Assembly (NCBI GenBank): GCA_037893245.1
Contig: JBAIAA010000818.1
Span: forward strand, 124,001 to 188,000
Reading direction: 5' to 3'
DNA length: 64,000 nt
DNA from: Crossaster papposus
Taxonomy: Eukaryota; Echinodermata; Asteroidea; Velatida; Solasteridae
Position 1 is the stretch's first letter. The number at the start of each line of letters is the position of its first letter. The notes under the pieces are model-generated. The model was not told the DNA's origin. It was given only the letters and a program-made list of their open reading frames with translations, and did not search any database. This document shows, piece by piece, positions 4,701-63,388 of the stretch. The position numbers and the translations under genes were made by a program.

Positions 4701-7700
4701 GGCGAAAAAACAAAGATAACATAAGAATAACTGCTCGACGCCGGTTGAAAACAAACGCTGTTTTTCGTGCTTTTCTCGTCATCCACGATTGTAAAACTTT
4801 GGACAGGTTTGTTAAATGATATTTACTATAAAATACAACCACCAAATCACACTACCCATTAATGATAATTCAAGCAATTACCAATGGTGTATCCACCTTT
4901 AACACTTTTCATTCTTAAATGGTTTTTACATCAGCCTCTCAGACTCTGACCTACCTGGTGTCAGACACCTATGGCCGTTCCATGAGTACCTCCAACGCCC
5001 TCCGCGTCAGTGGCAAGAATGAGCTCTACAACTACCAGACCCATGCTGGTGAGTGTCATCCTCGGAGGGAGGAGGCTCAAATGGCAGCATGGCCCCACCC
5101 AGGTCCCTTACGGATCCCTCCCGAGTCCCTTCCGGGTCCCCCCTCTCCCCACAGGTCTCTCCTGATCCCTCCCGGGTCCCTCTCGGGTCCCTCCCAGGTT
5201 CCTCCCGGGTCCCTCCGGGGTTCCTCATAAGTCCCTCCCGGGTTCCTCTCAGGTTCCTCCCGGGTCCATCACGGGTCCCTTCCAGGTTCATCCCGGGTCC
5301 ATCACGAGTCCCTCCCAGGTTCCTCCCAGGTTCCTCCTGGGTTCCTCCCGGGTTCCTCCCGGGTTCCTCCCGGGTTCCTCCCGGGTTCCTCCCGGGTTCC
5401 TCCCGGGTTCCTCCCGGGTTCCTCCCGGGTTCCTCCCGGGTTCCTCCCGGGTTCCTCCCGGGTCCATCACAGGTCCCTCCCGGGTTCCTCCCAGGTTCCT
5501 CCTGGGTTGCTCCCAGGTTCTTCCCGGGTTGCTCCCAGGTTCTTCCCGGGTTGCTCCCCGGTTCCTCCCGGGTTCCTCCCAGGTCCCTCCCGGGTTCCTC
5601 CTGGGTCCATCACGGGTCCATCACGGGTCCCTCCCAGGTTCCTCCCGGGTTCCTCCTGGGTTCCTCCCAGGTCCATCACGGGTTCCTCCCAGGTCCCTCC
5701 TTGGTCCCACCCGGGTCTATTACGAGTCTCCTTTTCATCTTTTACAGATATTTTGAATGTTGAACCACAAGTTGGAAGCATGGAAGGGGGCACCTTGCTA
5801 ACTATCACAGGAAATTACTTTGATGGATATGCTGCATCTGTGCTGGTTGGAGGTATGTCATATAATATTAAGCTCTTTTGATCCTGGCAGATTACTTGAA
5901 CGGAGCACAGAAATTGATCAGGAAGAAAACTAAGCAAACTGCATAACATTGCCAACTCGTGAAGGTGAGACACAAAGTGTGACATTTTAATACATTTCTA
6001 CTTGCGTATGCCGTCTATCGACTAAATTATTTGAATATTTATTTCTGATGTTTGTCTTGGATGTTGGACAGAATTTGTGTACATTCAAACACGATAAATT
6101 GAGTACACCAATGTACTAAGAGGGGACGTCGCATTTCTTTTTTATATTTGTTGTTGTATTGGAATTTTTTTTTACAAATCTCTGCGTGTACTACTAACTG
6201 ATCACAAAATGAAACTATACGTATTTTTTTAGGGCTATTGTAGATAAATTATGAAGGATATGTTGAAAAAGTGCCAACGTAACAAATGTCGCACAAGGTT
6301 ACACCATATTAAATTGTTTATAGCTACTGATTCACTTGTATTTCACGGATTAAAGGGATCGTATACGTTTAGTAAGTACCCCGAAAATTAATGGTAAAAA
6401 CAAGTTTCTCAGATTGAGTATTCCAATGCAGATTATTCTTCCTGCGTGGACATAACCGCTCCATATTCTCGGCAATATCTCAGAATTCAGTACCATTTTT
6501 TGAAATGAAATTTTTACAGGTTAGTTTTATAGTATATATCTATAACTATATATAGGATTGAAACAAACGGTAGGTTCCAATTACCAAACGTATACGATCC
6601 CTTTGAAGAGTAACTGACTTGAAGCTCGTATGGGGTCGATCATTCTTGGTGTTGTACTTAAACTGTCGTAGAAGTTCAGAAGTTGCCTGTAACATAATAT
6701 GCGCTGTGTTGGAGATGGAGTGACTCTTCTATGCAAGGAGGAAAAAAATACTGAAACTCTATCTGTTATAAATGAGTGGAAGAAAGTGTTAAACAATGGA
6801 TAATATCATCTTTCTTAACACATATGTGCAATTTTTTTTGGAAACAGGAGTTTCCTGTGAGATCTCCAACATCACTTCAACGGAGATAACGTGTGTGACG
6901 GGCCTGGCTCCGGCTCCGGGTAACCAGAGTGTGTATCCAGGGAACAGAGGAATGCTCTATGAAGTCTGGAACCAGACCTATGTATCGTAAGCTGCACTGC
7001 ATCTCTCATTTTTGCAAATGGCATTAATTAACCTTAAGAATCCCCATCCAGTCAAACTCCAACACCAGATTTCGTTGGGATCTGTTAGGATGGGTACTGG
7101 ACCCCTGTACTGACAGTCTTTCTAGGCATACCTCCAGAATCAGAGTCCAACAGTTTGTGTGTACAGTTTGCCATAAGGTGTTGGGATTTCCGAGTATGGT
7201 TCCTATAGTATATTACACTAGGAGTTATAGGGTTTATATCCTTACAACTTTTCCACATTATTTTGGTTGGTTACTTTTACGTCATTGAACATTTGAAAAC
7301 ACTTTACAAAGTCTTGTATAGAATGGAATTTTCTCGTTTTCTTTTGCCGCGTCGCAGATGGCGGCTCTATGTAAACACTTAGCTTTGTTGTTGTTCTTCT
7401 TCTTGTGCCAAAAATGACAACCAAAGCTGCACGGCGGTATCGTTTATAGTTGTAGTCGAACAGTGCCCTCCGAACATTATGAAATGAACGTGCTAGAGGC
7501 CTGCGGTATATTGTTGTGCAGAACTAGACCAATACACAACGACGCAGCTCCTGCACGAATTCGTGCTTGTGTTAATTCCAAGTTCCATGATATGCCTGAA
7601 TTGAGGATTAGACTGCAGCGCTGTCATTTTAAACTCTGTCCTTGACACTGCAAGGTTTGATGAAGCATTATGGGATACCAATGCAGCCGATTACAATGTC

Positions 7701-36200: not shown

Positions 36201-39200
36201 TAATTAGTTAATAATTAAAGCTAATAAATCTCGACTTCTAAGCGTTGATCCTTTGTAATACACTTTCTGTGGTTTGCAGAGTAACTTCTTTTCCTTAATA
36301 GGCCAGGGATCACACCCAAAGTCACAATACTAGCAACATTTATAGCAATGTTGCATTGACCTGGAAAATGGCAAACGGGGAACACTCAACGAGGATCCCC
36401 AGCCAAATGGCAATTACAGGTTTATGGTTTTGTCTAACTGTGTAACGCCCCCGAACAAAGATATTGACTAATTTAGGGAACCGCCCACACAGGGCTGGAT
36501 AGCTCAGTTGGTAGAGCACTGGATCGGCAATCCAGAGGTCGCTGGTTCAAGCCCCGCTCCAGTCAATTTCTTTGTTCAATTCTCAAAGTTGTTTTTCGTT
36601 TAGGCGGTACGGTCATCTTTGACGAGGCTGACATTGAGCTCCATGCCCAGAACATCTTGATTGTCGACGGCGGTGGTCTTCAGATAGGCACTGAGGAAGC
36701 ACCCTTCCAGCATGAAGCCACCATCATGATGCACGGCCACGTCCGCTCCACGGAGCTGCCGTTGTTTGGTGCTAAGACCCTGGCTGTCAGGAACGGAACC
36801 CTGGACCTACATGGTACGTTAATAAAACAGGCCCCACGGGAAAAATCTCAATGAATTGGGCGATAATAATTGTCATGCTTATATAATGCTTTCTGCGGCA
36901 GCCCATATCAGTGCTCATTGGGCCTCTACCCTCTACCCTATACTAGTTAAGTGTCTTGCCCAAGAGCACAAACAACATATTCCTGGCAGGCTTTGGACCC
37001 ACGCACCACCGTACATGAGTCAAACACTATAACCATTTGCCCATGGCATTCTACATGACTCTGACTATAAGGCCGATTCATACAAATGGCTTGCACGATC
37101 AACACGCTAGTCATGCTCGGGTAGCTACACAACACTTCAGGCTTCTTTAACCAATAGTGTTTGTTCATATTTGGCAGCAAAAATGTGCTCTTGACCAATT
37201 GGACTCTGGTATTTCTGAAAAGTAAACTACTTTTGATTATAAATCTTTCTTTTTGTGTCTGTGATTAATTAATCCGTTCAGGAAAGCCCGTACCTATAAC
37301 ATGGACACGCTTGGCAGAAACGGCCACGAAGGGAATGACCTCTATGAAACTTGAGGCAGAGGTGACATGGAAGACTGGGGATGAGGTTGTCATTGCATCT
37401 ACCGGATATCGGCACAGTCAGTATGAGAACGAACAGTTGACGATTACAGGTAAAATTCACAACCAAACAATTTAAGGCTGCCTGCGAATTGCCATTAAGA
37501 CCTGTAATTTTCCAGAAAAAGAGGAAATTTAGAGGCCGATACGGGGAATGTTAACAAAAAAATATTTTAATGAAAGTTCGCGCACTGTACCCCGACTCAT
37601 TTAGTGCAACGTGACACTAAATTCTGTCAAGGTACTCATCTGTATTAGTAGAGCAGACTGGTGTCTCGTAGGTTCGAATTTGGCAAGTAAACGAGTCAGG
37701 GTACATTGCAATAAGAGAAAATGTTCGTTTCAGCATCGGGCTCCAAATTTTAATTTCTCTTAAAAATGGCAGGTCTTGTGCTAATGACAATTCACAGAAA
37801 ATTGTTCATGTACCTTAACCAGTTCGCGCCGGATGACGTATATAAACGCAAAAATTCCCCCAAATTCAAAACGGATGACGCATAAACACACCAAGTTCAA
37901 GTTCGGAAATGTATGTCAGCAGCGCGCAAGGCCGGAAATGCGTGGGTGTGCTTCCCGGCACTATCAGCCTGAACACGCTTCGGATCGAGTTTCGTTAAAA
38001 ATAATCCCGCCCGTCGGCTCGGTGATGTTAAAATAATCCCGGCGCGAACTGGTTAAGGCTGTCTGTGAATTGTTATTAAGACCTGTCATTTTCCAAATAA
38101 AGAGAAAATTTGGAGCCTTATTGAAAGTTACCGTTCTATACCCAGACTCTTTTAGTGCAACGTGACACTAAATTCTGTCAAGGTACCTATCTGTATTAGT
38201 AGAGCAGACTGGTGTCTCGTAGGTTCGTATTTTGCAAGTAAACGAGTCAGGGTACAGTGCAATAAGAGAACATTTTCGTTTCAGCATCGGGCTCCAAATA
38301 TGCTTTTAGCTCTTGAAAATTGCAGGTCTTGTGCTAATAACAATTCACAGAATTTGTTTACATGAACCTTAAATAATTTTTTTTAAATGCCGCGGATGAA
38401 AAAGTGAAAAAATGAAAAGCCTGACATTGACGGCTCTACGGCGTACTCGTTAACTACTTTACTGGAACTTCATTTCGTCCACTGAATTTATGCTTTATTT
38501 TGTACGATCCATCTTCAAAATGAAATGAGACATGACCTACCTAGAATACAGATTGACGATTCGAGGAATTTAAGCCACCCTTAAGATTGTTTATCTGCTG
38601 TATCTTTGATAGAGCTACTCGTTCACCACACAGAATAGTTAATTAGGCCGCAATGTTCGTTTGCGTTATTTGCCTCGCTTTGATTGTCAAAATGCCATAT
38701 ACCCTGATAAAGGTCTGTAGGAATGGCTAAACTGTCTCAGATATTTATAAATTGTTAGTCCCGGCCTGTTTGTTGTTGCTTCTCCCCATTGAATTTGGCA
38801 CTCATGAATATACTCTCGTTCATTCCTTTTCCCCCCTCTCCAGGCATTTCATCTGACGGCAGTGCCACCCAGCTCACATTTACGCCAGCCCTAAAGTACG
38901 ACCACTATGGCATAACGCAGACAGTCGAGGGCGTTACTCTGGAAATGCGCGCCGAGGTGGGGCTCTTGACGCGCAATGTCAAAGTCCGGGGGTCGGTGCA
39001 GGAGGAGTGGATTGAGAACTACGATGCCTGCCCGCGAGACTTCAACACAGGTTTGCGATGTGATTTTGATTTTTAAATAATTTGAGATTAACGAGAATGG
39101 ACGAGGAACTGTCGATTCTTGAGTGAATCTACATTTCCGAGGCTATTCTCCAGCTTAAATGAGCGTCGTTTTTCTTGCATTTCTCAGCATCCATGATTGT

Positions 39201-51200: not shown

Positions 51201-54200
51201 GGCCGCTGGTAACAAATACGAGGTGTACTTCACCAGCACCAACCCCCAGGGAATGCGCTTCCATCTGCTCAACTCTGCCGAGAGTCAAGCGGTGGTGCTG
51301 GGAATCTGGTACATCAAGCCTGAACGCTTGGACGTCTATTACAAAGTGAGTTGTTTCTAGAAGCTGCTTCTAGAGTTTATTAGCCGAAATGCAGCGTTAC
51401 TAACCAAATGTGACTCATATTCAGCTGGTTTGAGCTTAGCATGTATTAAAAGCACATGGCTGGACATCTGGGGGTTTTTGTGGTAATTAAAGGTAGTATA
51501 CACCATTTGCAGATATCGAAAATATTTACTACCGAATTATTAAGAAATATCTTACTCATCTGAAAGTAAATGTTGATTCTGGGCATCCAGCAAAATGATT
51601 GCGCTATATATCCTGTAATTCTTCAGAAAAATAGAATTTTATAATGAAAAATTCGCGATCGCCGGACGGCGAGCGCGAAAAAACAAAGATAACATAAGAA
51701 TAACTGCTCGAAGCCGGTTGAAAAAAAACGCTGTTTTTCGTGCTTTTCTGGGCATCCATTATTCTAAAACTTCGGACAGCTCAGTTAAACGACATTTACT
51801 ATAAATACAACCCCCCAAATCTACTCATTCGTGATAATTCAAGCAATGACCAATGGTGTATACTACCTTTAACATTAAGCAAATGTTTTTGCAGCTCCAT
51901 GGGATTGAACCCATGGTGGTTTTGACGTGGAATTTCACGAATAGCCTATTATTGAAGCATTTGTGTACTCCTAAGCCACAGAAGTGCAGAAGTGGGTCTC
52001 GTATGCGATTGGGAGTTTGAACCTCCCAAGCTCGCAACCTCGGCAGAAAGACCTGTATAGAGTTTTAACAAGTCAACCACGAGTGAATGAAAACCTGATT
52101 TGATACTGTGTGAAATTTTGTTTATATTTATTGCCACTAGGATCGCTACATCATCCCAAATAATGCCAAATTTAGCTCCTCCGGAGATCTCATCTGGAAT
52201 GCCAAGGACCCGAACCTCCCCGACGACCAGTTCGACCCTTCCGTCACCTCGGGGGTCCACGGTGAGAACTACTTTGACCGCGACACCAAGACCCTCTGGG
52301 TCCTGGTCAAGGGCAGCAAGCCCGTCGAGATCCGCACCACTGCCGTCGTCATGGTTTCCTTCGGCGTGCCCGCCGTCTCCGTGGACGACTTTTACGAGGA
52401 CGGCAATCTGGTGAAGAATCTGGCGGCCCTGCTGAATCTGGACCCGTCGCAGATCCGCGTGGTTGAAGTGGTGAGGGAAGAGGGGCGTCGACGACGGCGT
52501 CTGGCCCAAGGCGAGTCTGGGGTGATCCTGGAGATTGGGTCACAGCCCAGACGGGAGATTGAACCACCTGGTGAAGGTGTTGCCACAGAAGCTCCAACAA
52601 CAAGTAAGTTGCAATTGACTCTCTGAACGGCTTTGTGATCACCTATGTCACAAAATATGCTGTGTGTGAGTACCAGCCATCTGTCTCTTTGTAACTAAAT
52701 GAAGGGGTACTTGTGTATGGAGTGGACCACAAAAAGCTTAGCGTAAAAAGACGATTATAGTTGCTGCATATATTGTTCTGGCGTAATTATTTTCGAAGGA
52801 GTATTCCACAGACCTGCCAAACTATTTCTACAGGGAGTGATTGATACGTTCAAGGCCCAAAGTAGAAAGAGATGAGCTATACAGTTTTCACTGAATTTGT
52901 GTGCAGTTCAACTTGTTGAAGGGTCACAGTATCAACAGCTGCAGGAGACAATTTAAGAGATTTTGAGCGGGAAACTGACCGGAGGGGTGCTCTTCCACCG
53001 GGACAAAATGCTCCAGCCCACACATGCACAGTGGTCATGGCTGCCATCCAGAAATGTAGATTTGACCTGGTTGAACACCTGCCCTATTCTCCTGATTTGG
53101 TACCCTCTACAATCTGTTCCTTTTTTTTTATCCCTCTTTAGTTTCCCCCGAGCCAGAAATCTCTCTGGGATATGAGGACCTCTTGAAGGTAACATCACAG
53201 CTGGCAAACGCCATGCAGATGGGACAGCTCTCCGAATACTTTGGTGTCCAGATCCTGGGTATGGCGATGACGGAGCCTGCTCCCAAGGTCATTGACCCCA
53301 CGGAAGGGGTGCGGGCTACCAACGAGACCGGAGGACCTCCAGAAGTCCCCGAAGGAACCAAACCGTAAGTAGGCAACTTGCTTTGTTGCATTTAAGTCTC
53401 TGCGAGTCTTTTCACAAGTCCTTTCATAAAATCAGTCGCAAGTAACTAGTTGAACAATGACAAAGAAAAGCTTCCCTTAACAGTTTATTTGAATAGCAAT
53501 GTTGTATACCATCAGAACAATCTTGTTCTGCAGAATTCTGAAATCGAATATCTCAATTATTACAGATGTATGACTTTTAGTTCATTTTGTGTGGACACTT
53601 CACATATTTGGTTTTTTTCTTTTGTTCATTTCTAAGATATGACGAAGTGATGCGAGAGGAGGAGGAGGAGCAGAACTCCAAGGAGGGCGTGGAGGTTGAC
53701 TACCGCACCCCAGACCACATGGTGTTCCTTACCCAGCCGGGCGTGGCTTGGGAGGGGTGGGCGTTTGGCCAGCAACCGTCAATCTACGTGGTGGATTCCA
53801 CGGTAAGACATCTTAGCTGGTGTTGTAGTCGAGTCTAATCTCAAGTCAAGAGTGCAAGTCGGAGTTGTATGACTCCCGAACCATTTTTTGTGATTCAGAA
53901 TCAGGCTGGCACTTGAGTCACCATGACAAATGACTCGGACTTGTCCAAATTACTACAAATCCCTTTTTTTTTTTTCAATAATATCATTACAAATTATTGT
54001 AGAGATGATCTTTTCCTGAGCAATTGATGAAGTTAGTATGTTTGTGTTTTGGGTTAAGTTACTCAATTTTTTGTTTGTAATTTCCACATGTTTTCACGAC
54101 TTTTGATGAAACTTGGATACAGTGACTCTAGGGTGGGAAGACACAATTCTTCATTGGATGAGGTTCAAGGGGTTATTTGAGGTTGTTGTTTATACATGCA

Positions 54201-57200
54201 CTAACTCAAAATACAAATTAAAAACACAACCCATACAGGGATTGACTGTGGGAGAAGGTGACAATTGCGATCAACGATGACTTGTTTGGGAAAAAATGAA
54301 GAGAAGTGATGAAGTTATCGAATTTTACCTGCAGGGCAAGATGTTAGCGCAACTGGGATCTCCATCCAACCCGTGGCAACTCAGTGCCTCCGTCAGACAG
54401 TCTACGTCGAACGCTGACGCTGTCCAACTTGTTGGCAACACGACCATCCTGTTTGATGGCAGCTGGGCCAACTTCACCAACCTCGCGATCGCCACACCAG
54501 CGCAGGGCGTCGTCCTGGACTTCAAGATCACGTACCCGGAGTCCACGTCGCTGGCTGGCATCAGCTCTGACATCTTTGACGTGTTGGTGCCACCGTCCAA
54601 GAGGATTCAGATTCGCTTCCTGGCCGACTATGACACGGTGGCCGCCGGGAAGGAGCAATACCTCGTCAAGAGTCTTGTAGACTACATCGTCGAAAAGTAC
54701 GACGGCGTCAAACTCGGCACTGTCACAATTGAGAAAGGTGAGGGGATCTTGCATCCAAAAATGATTGATTCAGTGATTCGTTTTGCCAAACAAGACTGCA
54801 TCTTGCCTCAAGTTTTAGTCCAATCAGCAGGCGCTTTACATCTCAACATCGCGTCTTCCTTTGCTGCGTTACAAAAACACGGCAGCCAAATTGGCCAATC
54901 AGCAGCTATTTCTAGAATTTTGCTCCACATCACGTCACAGTGGGCTCTGAATAAAACAAAATGTTAATCGCGAGTACCTGCTCTACTAGTGCCAGGATGA
55001 GGACTCGATTTACTCGCTCAGCAGGTGCCACCTTTGAATATAAAAAAAATTAAACTGTTTTTAAGGTTTATTGTTTGGTTGTCCTTGCAGGATCTATTCT
55101 GGCTTCCTTCGACATGATGGGAGATGTCGATGCTGCCCTGGGTACCATGTGGACAGATATCCAGGAAGGCCACTTCACCTTCACATTTGACGGCCAGACC
55201 TTAACAGCTGACAAGTACCTCCTTGTCAATGGGAACCCGTACAGACCAATTGATGTAAGATATGTGTATCTGGATATAAACACAGCTCGATTTGCTGACC
55301 TTTCCCAACTCCAGCAGCCAATTTCACCGAACTGTGCGAATAATCCAATTATCTTTGCCGAAGATAAATGAGGCATTTCCAACAGCTGCAGATTTTCAGT
55401 CCCTGCCTGATTCCGTTTGTTTTCCTCTCACCTCTAAAAAAAAAAAAAAAAAAAAAGCATCTGGAACTTTCTTCCACATGTACAGTACTACCAAGGGACT
55501 CTGCTGGAAATAAGTGGACTAGATAATTGTGGGTTATCCCATTCATTTGCCAAATCAAAAAGTACTAACATTAATGAACACGTTTTATTAACTTTGCTCT
55601 GTCCTTTTTATTTCCTCTGGGTTTAATCCTTTATTTGTGTTTCTTGTTCTTTATTAAACAAGTTTGACACCGAAGGGCTGCCTGGATGGGCCATTGCACT
55701 GATTATCATTTTCTCGGTTGCCATAGTTGCGTTGTTAGTTGTCGTGGCCTACAAGCTGTTTGGCCAGAAAGGTGAGGCTTCAGTTTAACAGGACAGCAAA
55801 ATCTAAGTAGCATTTGTAGATTGATAAAGGCGATGAAAGTGAAATTGAAATTGTAAGGATATTTGGCCTGAAACTGCCAGTTTAATAGTAAACCCTGTAC
55901 AGTGATTCACTGGGAACCTTTCACTTCCTTGCATTCATGTCAGACACTTTAATAATGTTGCTCAGGAAAAGTGAATGTGACATCTAATGAGTAGAGAGTA
56001 ATTACAGAGCAAACTTGGGTACACCACTACGTACCTTAACCGACTGCCCACTCTACTGAGCTGCAAATGGCATTTAGGATCTGAAGAAGGTTGACCCACC
56101 ATCAAGGGAATGGCTGCTTAGCAGTAGTTTTGAGATCTGATGAGGATCAGAATTGCTCTGGTATCATACGCTAGAAGAAGAACCTGTATGTATAATGTAC
56201 ATGAAGGATGTAGGTTGTTTGTTTGTTTGTTCGTTCGTAAAAGTGCAGTCCACTAGTTCATGAAAATTCGGATTAGATTTTGATTGGTTAGAGGTGGTTT
56301 GGGTTGGAAGCAATGAGAGAAATGATGCCTAAGGACAATTAATTACAGTTGAACATTGCAAGTTAATTATCTGCTACACTATGTACTTTGTATTTTGGCG
56401 TGATGCATAGAAATTCATGTTGCCTTTGATGAGCTTATTGTGCGTGGTGTACACTATGAAATTACTACCCGACACTTTCCATAAATGTTTGCAAGTGCCT
56501 TCCAGTTGATCAGGCCGAGGCCAAATATCTACAGCAGCTTGAGAGGTGGTCTGCATGCACCCTCACATAATTACCAGTAATGTACTCCTGGGTGGAGAGA
56601 GACAATTGTAGTAAAGTGTCTTGCTCAAGAATACTATGTTTCATGACAAGGAGTCGGACAGTCTATTCAGTCTATTCCTTTGTATTCCTGTAGTTAAGAA
56701 AACGTTGGCTAACTACTCATAGTTGAACCCCAAATTGTGAATCTGGGCCTCTCCGTGGTCCCTCTTCATTTGTCTAAAAATAATTCCCTAACCCTGTGTT
56801 TCCTATAAAGGTTTTTATTCAGAGAGGGCGAACTGGACTGTGTACAAGTTCACATTCCGTATTAAACCTATTCTCGCATCGTATACCGGCGGGGTCCGGG
56901 CCCTTAAACTGCAAGGGAAACGGCCGGCCTTGCGGGACCCATTTAGACAGGGTGCCGTGTGTCTGGGGGATCCTTTGTGGCCCGCCTTCCACGGGATTCT
57001 CTTGGAAAACCGCCTAGAATCAGTCTATCGTTACACTTCTATACAATAGTTCTTTCAATCCTTAGAAACGTTCTCATTCTTTTCCTGTGTGATAATTGTT
57101 CCTTCCGACTCAATGTTTTATATTTTTTATTCTCCACAGTTCACTTGATTGTTTTTTTGGCCACTGATGCCGGTACGGCTTTAAACCCAAAACTCACTCA

Positions 57201-60200
57201 CTCACTCTCGCATCGTATGAATGTCTTTAGTTTATCTGGGTGTTAAAAATACTCAAACCATGGAGATCTGGACTTTATCAAATTTCTTTTTTTTTCATTT
57301 TCTTTTTAGGGAAGAAGTTTGCGGTGTCTGAAGAAATGCAGCTGACAGAGTCTGGAGTTCGACTCAGCAGTTTCTTCGGTTCAAGCAAGGTGCCGATGAT
57401 GGTGATTGAGGGTAGCGAAGCAGACTCGGAAGACGTAGAGTAAGTATCGACTTTGATGATTATAAACTAAATTGTGTGTTTCAAGATCGACTCCATGGCG
57501 AGTTTGACATTTGGTTTTAGCTCGAGTCATGTTAAGTGGCAGTCACATGAACGCACGTAGAAAATGAAAACGAAATCTTGTTTACACTAAAGGTCACATT
57601 GTGTGTGTAAAAAAAACACCAAAGTGGTAAATTGTTGGAGGCTGATGTGTAACTATGATCAAGTTTGTGCGCTGCTGAATTAGTCCCTGTTGTCTAATTG
57701 TAAACCAAGTTGGCCATTCGAGAACTGATAGTAAATGTTGCTAATGCTAACTGTGGTGTGAACGAGCTAGTGAAAGCACGTAGCGTTCAAATAATAACTA
57801 AAGATCAAGTCTTGTCGACTCTAGTTGCCAAACCGAAAAAGCAGAATGTACAAAATTGAAGACTTTTAATAAGATTCTCTGTTACAGAGAGGGAAAAAGA
57901 CGGTTTAAAAACGTTGAGAGCATGATAAATTTAACTCATTGAATCTGTTATGCCATGAAGATAATTATTTGAATTGTTTGTTCATGTTGGAAGCTCAATG
58001 TTATTGGTTTTGTTGTCTACCTCTGAAATCACTGTTTAGTGGTTGATATTCTCGTTAACATTAGAGGATGGCACTATATCGAGCTGTATGCGGGTTAAAA
58101 GTCCAAATTGTCTGCAGATATTATCTCCAATCTGAGCAATTCATACCTTATTGATCATATCATTGTCATTTCAGTGTGACCATATACATGTACATTGGAT
58201 TAGAATAGTTGATGTATTTTGTCATATGTCTTATAATATTTGGTATACAAAATTTCACTTTTGTTGATAAGGACAGCAAACCAGGTGCTACGACTTTACA
58301 GGATGTTGGAGTGTCGTGGCCTGGCGGTTAAGAACCCGGTTTTCTGTTCCGCAGAGCGCGAGTTCGAGTCCCGGTGTTGACACGTGTGTCCTTAAGCAAG
58401 GCAAATAAACCACTATTGCTTCGTCCTTCGGATGGGACGTAAAGCTGGAGGTCCCGTGTGTTGTGTAATGCACGTAAAAGAACCCAGAAAAACTTAACGC
58501 TAAGAGAAGGGGTTTGCCCCGGTGTTTCTAGAGGATCATGACAGCTACCTTCTCGTGGTGATCCGGCTAAGAGAAATAAGACCTCTCGAACTAAAGCTGG
58601 CAATCTGGACTTCGGTCCATACGAAAGAGAGAGAGAGGATGTTGGAGACTATTATCAACTTAGTTGATCAAGGTCTTGTATAAGAATGTGGTAGTTTTCT
58701 TTTTGGCTGTTTCTAAATGTTTTATATTACCTCTCTTTTTACGTTTATCTGTGTATCCTTTATCTGTGTATTCAACAGCCTAAGGAGCCAGGCTAATTCC
58801 CCAAGACGGACACCTGAGATCCAGATCACTGCTCTGCCACCAGGCTTCACGGAGTCTACGGGCCAGGAGGAACGAGGTAGGTTTCTTAGTAGTAGGTTAA
58901 TAATAGACAATTCTGATATAGCAGAACTGGTACTCAAGACACTGTGTTATTCCTGCTCATTGGGCTCGCAAAACTTTGCAAATACCCTGTCGGCTTCCTT
59001 GGGAGTATGCAGCTAATAACACTGTCTTGGAAAAGTAAGAAGACACACACATAAATACTTGAGTTAACTCCTAAACATGCTTTAATGCAACATGGCGTCC
59101 TACCGACACAACAAGCAACCATCTCCACCCTGACAGGTACCCATTTACTCCTGGGTGGAGAGAAGCAATGAGTGACAAAGCGCCTTTCCCAAGGGCACCC
59201 CATGTTGAACTCGCAATGTCACGTTAATCTTGTAGCCGAGGTGTTGAATTGGAAACAGCTTCAGCTTTCTTGAGTCCAAATAATATTGACACAGTGCTTT
59301 GAGTTAGCAGTTCTGGTAGATATACGAATGGACTCTTATTAATTAGCTATAATGTGGTTGAGTCGATTCAGTTGATGGCACGTAAAAGTGCTTAAAGTCA
59401 TACAAGTCATATCCGACCACAGAAGAAGAAAACAATTTGTATAGGACAGAATTTGAGACCAACTGTACTCACATATGCGACCGACCAGCAAATTAGCATG
59501 AAGTTGCAATAAGGCTTTCCGAGTTACAAGTAGAAACAACCATTTTAGGATCAGGTCACATTATGGTTTGAGTTTGGAATTGAACTTGGGCCACATTGAT
59601 GAGAGACAAGTGGTTCACAGACTTGCCAACCATTTCTGTTTGTTTGATCCTATATTAGTTTTGCAGGATCGCATCGAGATGTTTGTGTTGGTCAGGAAGC
59701 ACGACAACACCTTCCAGAAACTCTGCGTGGTCCAGGCTGACAAGGTGGGCAAACTGCGTGACCTGCATGTGGATGTAGCGAGCGCTCTCCCAGGCAAGCT
59801 ACAGGGGAAACCGTTCATCCTTACCAATGTGCTGTTGGAGGACATCAGCTTGGCTCAGGAAGAGAAGCTGTCTGTGAGTGAGGTGTATCACTCGGACCGT
59901 GTGCTGATCCGATGGATGGAAGAGAGCGGTGAGTGTACAGGGGAGTAACTTATCCCTCCCTAAGACGTGTAAGTCTGCTGCCAGTAGTAGATTAGTAAAT
60001 AACACTTGATGTTTTGATGACACTTGTTTCATCCTAGGAGTAATACCTGCTGTCAATCTCACTAAACAAAGACCTGTACCAATTTGATAGTTGTTTGTTT
60101 TGATGCTTGATGAAATAGTTGTTGAAATAAATATGAAAACACTTTTGCACAAGGTGTGATAGAATTGTGTAAAAAGAAAATATTGTATGTAGTTGTTCCC

Positions 60201-60402: not shown

Positions 60403-61613
60403 TGGATATGAGGTTGTTTAGGTTACTTAACAACAAAAATCTTTAACTGTTCGTCAAACGACGGGGCTCATCCGTCTATAAGTCTCTAAGTCTCTAAGTT
60501 CATGCATCAAAGAATACGATCATAGTGATGGAACGTCATTTTTAAGACGCGCGCGTTCCCAAATTACAAGTAAAGGCGAGTGCGTAGAAATAGGACCGCG
60601 TAGTTTAGGGGGTCTGACATGTACGTACGTGTGCTAGTACGTTTGTTTATGGTGTAAATTCGTCTCGATAATTTCCTTTGTTTGTACTCTTAACTTTTTG
60701 CGACGGCTCTCATTGGTTTTGTACACGAATCTCAATCGAGGACGTCCTCGATTCTAACCCTAACCCCAATTCACCTACGTGGCGCCTGGCATGCGTCTTC
60801 TATTTACACCATAAACAAACGCATGTACACGCATGTCCACGCATGTCTAGTTTGTTTACATGCATTTGTGTATGGTGTAAAGTATTGTTGAAATTGAAGT
60901 ATTGCTGAATTTGTCAAATGATTGATGCCGCACTTTATTTTTTTTCTTACTAATTGTGGTGACGGCAATCTGATCAGATAGCTTGTTCTGGAAACTGCGA
61001 TTGGTGGGTGAGTAGGGCGCCACCGTGTGGTGGTGGTGATTCCAGAAATCTCCTGTCACCGCATTGTTGTGTCCTGCAAACCCACTAATTCAGGTACAAT
61101 TTTATTGGGGTTTTTTTACCATCGATATATCTTTTAACATTGCTTGTGTGATGTAGTATACAGTATTGGAGTTTACGATATAAAGATGTGGACATTGTGT
61201 AAAAGTAGCTAGTCGCAAGGCGCAAAGTTACGCTGATTAATTTTACAAACGTGGCGACTCCGTTTATCGATGTATAAATAATGTGCGTGTATTGGGCCAC
61301 TGGATAACCGGGGATGTAAGGCCGTGTCCGAAACGAATATCTAGAGCTATGGTCTACGTCTACAGCTACGTCTACGTAGGCGCTAAGGCAAATGGAATTC
61401 GGACGTGGCTACGGTAGAGCCTACGGCTAGTTATTGTGCCCTCAAGCGATGCTTGAATTAGTGTTTGCAAAATTACGATGTAAGAATTTACAACAATTAT
61501 CGTCTGCTAGATGTTACGCAATGTTTGTTTACAGCCAGTCGGAATACCTGATGATATTGACGTATTTGTCGATCTGTTAGTTTCAATTCAATGCACTATC
61601 ATTGAAAAATAAA
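60403..61613 (+). other. Probable 3' UTR; end uncertain
   Basis: After the stop at 60402 no further coding continuation is visible. AATAAA at 61608-61613 is the first canonical polyadenylation signal seen downstream, but it lies inside or beside an inverted-repeat element, so the real transcript end may be earlier. Confidence 0.3.
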
Positions 61614-61813: not shown

Positions 61814-63306
61814 GATCTTTGTCCCTGGATGTATTATTCTGGATACACGTAAGAAAACGCTATTAGCTCTAGTTGCTTGTGCCACCAATTAAGCCTTATA
61901 TTTTGGTGAAAACTTGCTGTGAAATCGGAGCTCCTGCATATGTTGAATAGTGCCCTGTTGTGTTATAATAATCTGCTAATGTAGAACTGCTTAGTTACTA
62001 ATTGAACTGGAATTTGTGCTTAGCGTATGGACCGTTAATCCGAAAGTTTTGATGGAACCTGTCGAATGTTCATTGGGACTTGCCTGTAATTTAGTTTCTG
62101 CAAAGTCTCTGTGAAATTATTATTTTTATTTTTTTTGCAACCGAGTGAACTGTTTGAATAAGGTTAACATATGTGATGATATTTTTGTTGGATAAAACAA
62201 GTGTATAATTTAAGTGTGCTCTCCCAGTTTGTAGTGGAACTGCAGGACACAACTTGTCCACATAATCACAATGTTAGGAATGATTATTTAATAAGTGTAT
62301 CTTGTGGGGGGAATTAAAGTGACAGCACAGAAGCAAAGCGCCGTCTCCCGACTATCTTCCCCCCCCCTACATCATCATACTTATCTCTGCTATGTTTTTC
62401 TATTTCTAATTATTTGTTTGCATCAAATGTCCCCAGACGTGCGTACACCAACTTATTTATGTATTTATGTTGTCTTCTACTATTTTTCAGATTGGTTTGC
62501 TGTAGCCCTAAATTCACCACTTGTCTACATCCATTGCCTAAAGATGTCATTGCCAGGAAAAAGAAAAATCGTCCCCCTCCGCCCCCGTCTCTCCTCCCCG
62601 CCCCTCTCCCCCCCCCCCCCCCCCTTTCCCCCTCCCGCCCCTTTTCCCCTCCCCTCCCCTCTCCTCCTGCCCCTTTCTCCCTACCCAAGTATTGTTGTGA
62701 ACTAAAGCCTACCTATGTATGTGGTAAAAGTATTGTCCTGACCGCCCAGTGTATCATGATACAGTGCCCAACATTGAGGTGCCCACCCGAAATGTCATTT
62801 TTGTATATTTTTGTCCAAAAAGCAAAGCTAACCCCTTACAATGTAAAAAGTCAAAATTCGGCCAATTTTGACCGAAAAACCAAGGCTAACCCCTTACACT
62901 GAAAAAAGTATTAATATTGGCCAATATTGGCCAATTTCTGAACTCTTCATGGTTGATGTTTGTTGATGCCACAGCTTGTTTGAGGAGTGATGTCCATGCT
63001 GTTTGTAGGAATAGGCATTGAATAGTTAGCCGTTTGGTTTGGTGCTGGGTGTTGCACTTGAGATACGATTTTGTGAAGAGGTAAGGACTGGCAGAACTTG
63101 TATAATGTCGTTGGTGAAGTATTTTTAGCGTTCAAACTTTTTTGTACTGAGTTTGTGTGGTTATTTTCTGAACCACACATCTCACCAAAGAGTATTACTT
63201 ATCCTTTTGCTTTGTCGCCATGCCAACCATCAAATCTCCTGTTTGGAAAGATGTGCTGTCAAACACATTATTCTGAAGTTGTGTTCACTTTTGTTGTCAT
63301 TGTCAG
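61814..63306. other. Intergenic or 3' flank with a C-rich tract
   Basis: A low-complexity C/T tract at about 62570-62690 makes long false ORFs. Two diverged copies of AAGCTAACCCCTTACA-type sequence at 62825 and 62883. No gene recognised. Confidence 0.5.
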
Positions 63307-63388
63307 GCTCCCTGCCACGTACATGCAGCTAGCGGGAAAGAGTCGCCACTTCATGAAGAAATACTTGAGTGTTAAGGAGGAGTTGTAG
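63307..63388 (+). CDS. Possible orphan terminal exon
   Basis: After an acceptor-like GTCAG, one frame reads LPATYMQLAGKSRHFMKKYL then SVKEEL and stops at TAG (63386-63388). It looks protein-like (basic then acidic helix) but no upstream exon could be joined to it. A donor consensus CTG|GTAAGT follows at 63401. It might be the 3' end of another gene, an alternative 3' exon, or chance. Confidence 0.25.

Follow-up and report, generated by a model that had tools for sequence, protein, structure and literature searches.

The window analysed here is a 64-kb stretch (C818:124001-188000) of an echinoderm genome that comprises 1.02 Gb in 1841 contigs, and a many-exon gene lies on its plus strand. Pfam families matched three of the ten long open reading frames scanned: two contain IPT/TIG repeats, one of them with four stretches, and one contains a CEMIP-type beta-helix. 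The CEMIP_beta-hel family (CEMIP/TMEM2-like beta-helix) reaches 198.8 bits in this gene. In its predicted spliced pieces, PA14 scores 27.8 bits against a cut-off of 24, and two G8 domains score 131 and 82.5 bits against a cut-off of 22.9. The translation of 55663-55771, read by eye, contains the one transmembrane (TM) helix, close to the C-terminus. IPT/TIG repeats, PA14, two G8 domains, two CEMIP-type beta-helix matches, and the C-terminal TM helix are common to this gene and vertebrate fibrocystin-L (PKHD1L1). We therefore assign it as a fibrocystin-L-type gene, the name PKHD1L1-type resting on domain content.

Upstream, no Pfam family was found in window positions 1-29997, read in one plus-strand frame with stops as X. 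A tandem array of about 50 copies of an 11-base unit occupies 5168-5716; its plus strand is open as PPGFLPGSSRV-type repeats, and the gene finder called it coding. Within the gene region, ARAGORN predicted a tRNA-Ala (ggc) at 36493-36565, which may be repeat-derived.

Four exons after the transmembrane helix

Downstream of the TM exon lie four further exons, t1-t4 (Table 1), all with AG/GT borders and in one frame with 55663-55771. The initial annotation had placed four in-phase exons here and estimated a tail of about 212 residues; all four were recovered at its positions. By our count the tail is 213 residues long up to the stop codon, since the TM exon and the tail together encode 249 residues and the TM exon 36. 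The working acceptor of t3 reads ttag/TTTTGCAG, and the corresponding exon of a second gene on contig C350, described below, begins at the corresponding base. A nearer acceptor, with the exon starting at 59667, was rejected because it breaks the frame and because C350 uses the counterpart of 59659.

Table 1. Exons of the window gene and of its paralog on contig C350. Identities are for aligned residues; the TM and t1 exons were paired less by sequence than by position, phase, and length.
Feature	Position	Strand	Identity, window versus C350	Remarks
Window, ectodomain exon	52141..52603	+	61%	run of five arginines at 52486-52500; same run at C350:475304
Window, membrane-proximal ectodomain exon	55091..55254	+		completes conserved G-S pair split by preceding intron
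Window, TM exon	55663..55771	+	9/36	donor phase 1; C350 counterpart also 109 bases, same phase
Window, t1, linker	57310..57439	+	14/42	in frame; same phases in C350
Window, t2, proline-containing linker	58779..58876	+	22/33	in frame; PRRTPEIQ in both copies
Window, t3, ~90-residue domain	59659..59928	+	43/90	in frame; C350 exon also 270 bases
Window, t4, MYND finger, then TAG stop	60260..60402	+	34/47	in frame; zf-MYND above cut-off; 83% over 41 residues
C350, TM exon	481170-481278			matches window TM exon by position, phase, and length
C350, t1	482349-482469
C350, t2	483693-483802
C350, t3	484330-484599
C350, t4	485697-485860

Two repeat-like stretches were noted among the introns. A SINE-like repeat lies in the t1-t2 intron (58290-58640) with an apparent tRNA-type promoter box, recognized by eye; ARAGORN called no tRNA in it. 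Window positions 56674-56882 resemble the TM-t1 intron of C350 (67% over 237 columns), probably as a shared repeat.

A genome search with t3 at E up to 10 found at least two places, the window and C350:484329-484601, the latter 49% identical over all 91 residues. The C350 match belongs to a diverged fibrocystin-L-type gene, which is collinear with the C-terminal ectodomain of the window gene over the 30 kb compared. Across the last five exons, both genes have the same series of intron phases (1, 2, 1, 1), and the whole tail is conserved in the second gene. For the TM and tail exons of the two genes, the NG86 method gives a dN of 0.44 and a dS of 2.2 over 248 codons, the dS being near saturation and, taken by exon, computable for neither t1 nor t4. 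Identity in the finger exon reaches 83% over 41 residues, as compared to 35-79% in 13 ectodomain matches, a ranking that covers the ectodomain exons within the 30 kb of C350. Another match to the TM segment, at C160:1380433 (E 1.08), was set aside as a different membrane protein, since the TM exon is the one exon with an appreciable match there (3.75e-5).

How many such genes does the genome hold? A conserved probe from the C-terminal ectodomain, at E up to 1, yielded at least six matches, all in the window and C350 loci. The CEMIP beta-helix family, at E up to 0.001, likewise occurs only in these two loci, with at least two matches in each. The finger exon, at E up to 1, matches at least 18 places; the two genes stand at 5.9e-25 and 1.1e-18, and the next match at 0.004. 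All of these counts are lower bounds because only the best candidates were scored, so that a diverged third gene could be missed. Both fibrocystin-L-type loci found by the two ectodomain probes carry the predicted MYND tail.

Genome-wide, zf-MYND itself has at least 58 matches at E up to 0.001, with the window finger included and the C350 finger absent. Some belong to gene arrays (C412:947000-996000, and C237) with open reading frames of about 550-580 residues, one example combining DUF4470 with MYND. Five others share an identical score of 39.5 bits (on C2, C334, C728, C1010, and C1212), as if one repeated element had been copied. Separately, the 16,330-base contig C1841 has a cox1 gene with internal TGA codons, which is open alike under NCBI tables 5, 9, 13, and 14. 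Tables 9 and 14 yield identical residues and, judged by eye, those expected at conserved positions, such as STNHKDIG. As table 9 is the code of echinoderms and flatworms, we regard the animal as an echinoderm, probably a sea star, provided that C1841 belongs to it. Contig C8 (5,301,754 bases) also matches the cox1 family, in addition to this mitochondrial gene; its matches contain no stops, and the contig may be a bacterial chromosome.

Do the tail exons belong to the fibrocystin-L-type gene?

A simple gene finder left the tail unconnected to the TM exon. Its prediction lacks the TM and t4 exons, ends the ectodomain at a small, spurious exon (56514-56570), begins a separate gene at ATG 57336, and has a cytosine-rich stretch (62557-62705) in place of t4. 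We regard these breaks as weak evidence, because the finder split the ectodomain elsewhere too. At -2.2, the acceptor of the TM exon scores weakly, and t4 shows no codon-usage signal (-0.2 bits); the controls of the codon scores are partly circular, as the gene finder had been trained on t2, t3, and most of t1, with t3 and t4 among its seeds.

The finder's start at ATG 57336 would fit a separate small MYND gene just downstream of a fibrocystin-L gene with a short tail. If the frame of the window gene is continued beyond the TM donor, a stop follows five codons (GEASV), and a protein ending there would resemble the human one, with its tail of eight or nine residues. The second gene argues against both the separate gene and the early stop. 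On C350, the same exons follow the TM exon in the same order and phases, 45 codons are open past the TM donor with no early stop, and the 77 residues of t1-t2 contain no methionine, leaving ATG 57336 without a counterpart. The initial annotation had named an independent promoter and start codon of the tail as telling against its own reading; ATG 57336 could be such a start, but the objection is weakened by the lack of a counterpart in C350. In addition, the t1 acceptor is strong (6.3), and no AATAAA occurs between the TM exon and 58404, although an ATTAAA stands at 56861. The AATAAA at 58404 is in the t1-t2 intron, another is in the t3-t4 intron (60126), and the first after the stop codon is at 61608. 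Taken together, we consider a separate MYND gene very improbable.

The early stop could also mean that short-tailed and MYND-tailed forms are both made, by alternative splicing or polyadenylation. A possible extra exon on the plus strand at 63307-63387, encoding 26 residues and then a stop, has an acceptor phase that fits the t1 donor and a codon score of 7.3 bits; it may be an alternative last exon or part of another gene. The early stop, however, is not conserved in C350, and the extra exon has no sequence match in the PDB and a codon score within the range of non-coding windows. The production of two forms is therefore a tentative reading, which we think rather unlikely, and we favor a single product in which the TM exon is spliced to t1-t4.

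The MYND finger and the t3 domain

The translation of t4 alone matches Pfam zf-MYND (PF01753) with 32.9 bits (E 6.6e-8; cut-off 22.7), which bears out the family assignment suggested for the last exons. With the TM segment and the entire tail as the query, the score is 28.3 bits (E 1.9e-6) for the window gene and 24.7 bits for C350, both against the same cut-off of 22.7. A chance match is unlikely, because the scores exceed the cut-off and the tail is conserved in a paralogous gene.

The ligand residues follow the order C-x1-C-x7-C-x2-C-x5-C-x3-C-x7-H-x3-C, a C7H set with C-x-C as its first pair. The C350 finger retains all eight, its first pair again being C-x-C. The normal first pair in MYND fingers is described as C-x-x-C (PMC3555993). 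In the Pfam alignment the finger enters the profile at position 4, and phmmer places a gap of one residue at the first pair; zinc binding by the first cysteine is therefore only putative. Thus, of the complete MYND-type C7H set initially proposed, the eight ligand residues and the family assignment hold; the first pair, which had been given as C-x-C from the start, departs from the canonical form.

Among sequences in the PDB, the finger best matches DEAF-1 (5.8e-4) and SMYD2 (7.9e-4). The MYND fingers of DEAF-1, SMYD2/3, and ETO (CBFA2T1) have the same order of ligands as the t4 finger, and in DEAF-1 the spacing after the first cysteine is also equal. They differ in their first pair, C-x-x-C as compared to C-x-C in t4, and the t4 finger is placed at the end of a predicted single-pass membrane protein. 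In DEAF-1, the corepressor peptide is reported to be contacted by Met512, Glu514, Thr516, Gln529, and Trp533 (PMC3555993). When both echinoderm fingers are aligned to these residues, the glutamate, glutamine, and tryptophan are kept and two of the five contacts are changed, with serine for threonine and glutamine for methionine. None of the three proline patterns tried matched in either the window or the C350 tail.

Neither copy of the t3 domain matched a Pfam family at E up to 10, and a PDB search with a profile of both copies returned nothing meaningful (one chain, E 0.16). A ubiquitin-like (beta-grasp) fold, suggested by eye, found no support: hhalign to ubiquitin gave a probability of 0.5% over 7 columns. 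Single-sequence structure models were of too low quality for use (mean pLDDT 51.3 for t3, and 58.3 for a second model), so the best hit of the t3 fold search, at E 0.72, is meaningless. Searches for relatives of t3 plus t4 gave 4 pattern stretches in viral contigs and 35 stretches in prokaryote genomes, with none confirmed in either, results that have no bearing on other animals.

A possible role of the tail and comparison with known systems

We propose that the protein extends into the cytosol by a tail of about 213 residues, in which a linker would be followed by the t3 domain and then by the C-terminal MYND finger. By analogy with MYND fingers elsewhere, the finger would bind a cytosolic partner through a short peptide that contains proline, and this partner would thereby be tethered under the membrane to the giant ectodomain. 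Since the glutamate, glutamine, and tryptophan contacts are kept in both fingers, tethering of a cytosolic partner seems the most likely role. We give a probability of about 0.68 to this reading, in which an echinoderm fibrocystin-L and its MYND tail form one protein that serves as a membrane-tethered peptide-binding scaffold; it is set at this level because we infer even the expression as one protein. As to the earlier proposal that a cell-surface beta-helix protein is joined to a cytosolic binding module, the in-frame finger at the end of the gene supports the joining, and the binding is a prediction from sequence.

The finger might instead be mainly a device for trafficking or ciliary delivery, rather than a part of a signalling scaffold, a view that we consider doubtful. 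CHB-3, a zf-MYND protein that we take to be of the ANKMY2 type, has its finger in a soluble adaptor and not in the cargo. Nevertheless, CHB-3 is reported to be needed for the delivery of a receptor guanylyl cyclase to C. elegans cilia, an allele without the MYND region is defective (PMC2991246), and mouse stereocilia carry fibrocystin-L (PMC11043200).

The initial annotation had also raised release by cleavage. Fibrocystin is described as undergoing a convertase cut, shedding near the membrane, and a gamma-secretase cut in the membrane that yields a free tail (PMC13424714), and by this precedent the echinoderm tail could be cut free by Notch-like processing and act in the cytosol or nucleus. 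The run of five arginines is a possible proprotein-convertase site. Both copies keep it, as well as the membrane-proximal G-S pair, with an intron interrupting the glycine codon in each. A SEA domain before the TM helix, suggested by the G-S pair, found no support: at E up to 10, Pfam gave no families in either copy and the four PDB matches included no SEA chain, which counts against the proposed release. Furthermore, our searches relate the echinoderm tail in no way to that of fibrocystin, MYND being its sole Pfam match above a cut-off. Release by cleavage therefore appears unlikely, and we retain the tethered scaffold as the preferred reading.

The presence of a predicted MYND tail in both loci found suggests an intracellular role of fibrocystin-L outside vertebrates, and the small finger offers a handle for seeking the pathway. 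The fibrocystin family has been studied for kidney and hearing disease. The open-access literature that we searched contained no description of a fibrocystin-L with a MYND tail; subscription journals and protein databases were outside this search, so predicted proteins with the same architecture may already be public.

How does the echinoderm protein compare with its vertebrate relatives? The cytoplasmic part of human fibrocystin-L is given as eight (PMC11043200) or nine (PMC13424714) residues, in contrast to about 213 with a MYND finger in the window gene. This length leaves no room for a finger in the human protein, in agreement with the initial annotation, in which no MYND finger was known from vertebrate PKHD1L1. 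A very short tail is a trait of the vertebrate fibrocystin-L members and need not define the family. Fibrocystin (PKHD1) resembles the window gene in its long tail, 192 residues in human (PMC13424714), and in an ectodomain site at which a convertase may cut. The fibrocystin tail differs in being described as of low complexity with targeting sequences, and MYND occurs nowhere in this 2026 review (PMC13424714). The same review describes fibrocystin-L as the ancestral member of the family and the long tail of fibrocystin as unique among vertebrate proteins. One speculative sequence of events, which we would not favor at present, is that fibrocystin-L was first a receptor with its own intracellular output module (t3 and MYND), possibly released in a Notch-like manner to recruit corepressors; this module would have been lost in vertebrate fibrocystin-L, now an almost tail-less coat protein of stereocilia, and fibrocystin would later have gained an unrelated long tail.

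Finally, CHB-3, an ankyrin-plus-MYND adaptor of ciliary cargo, resembles the window protein in having its finger near the C-terminus and in its tie to membrane receptor biology (PMC2991246). CHB-3 is a soluble ankyrin protein and not a receptor, whereas the window gene is predicted to encode a membrane protein with the finger in its own tail.
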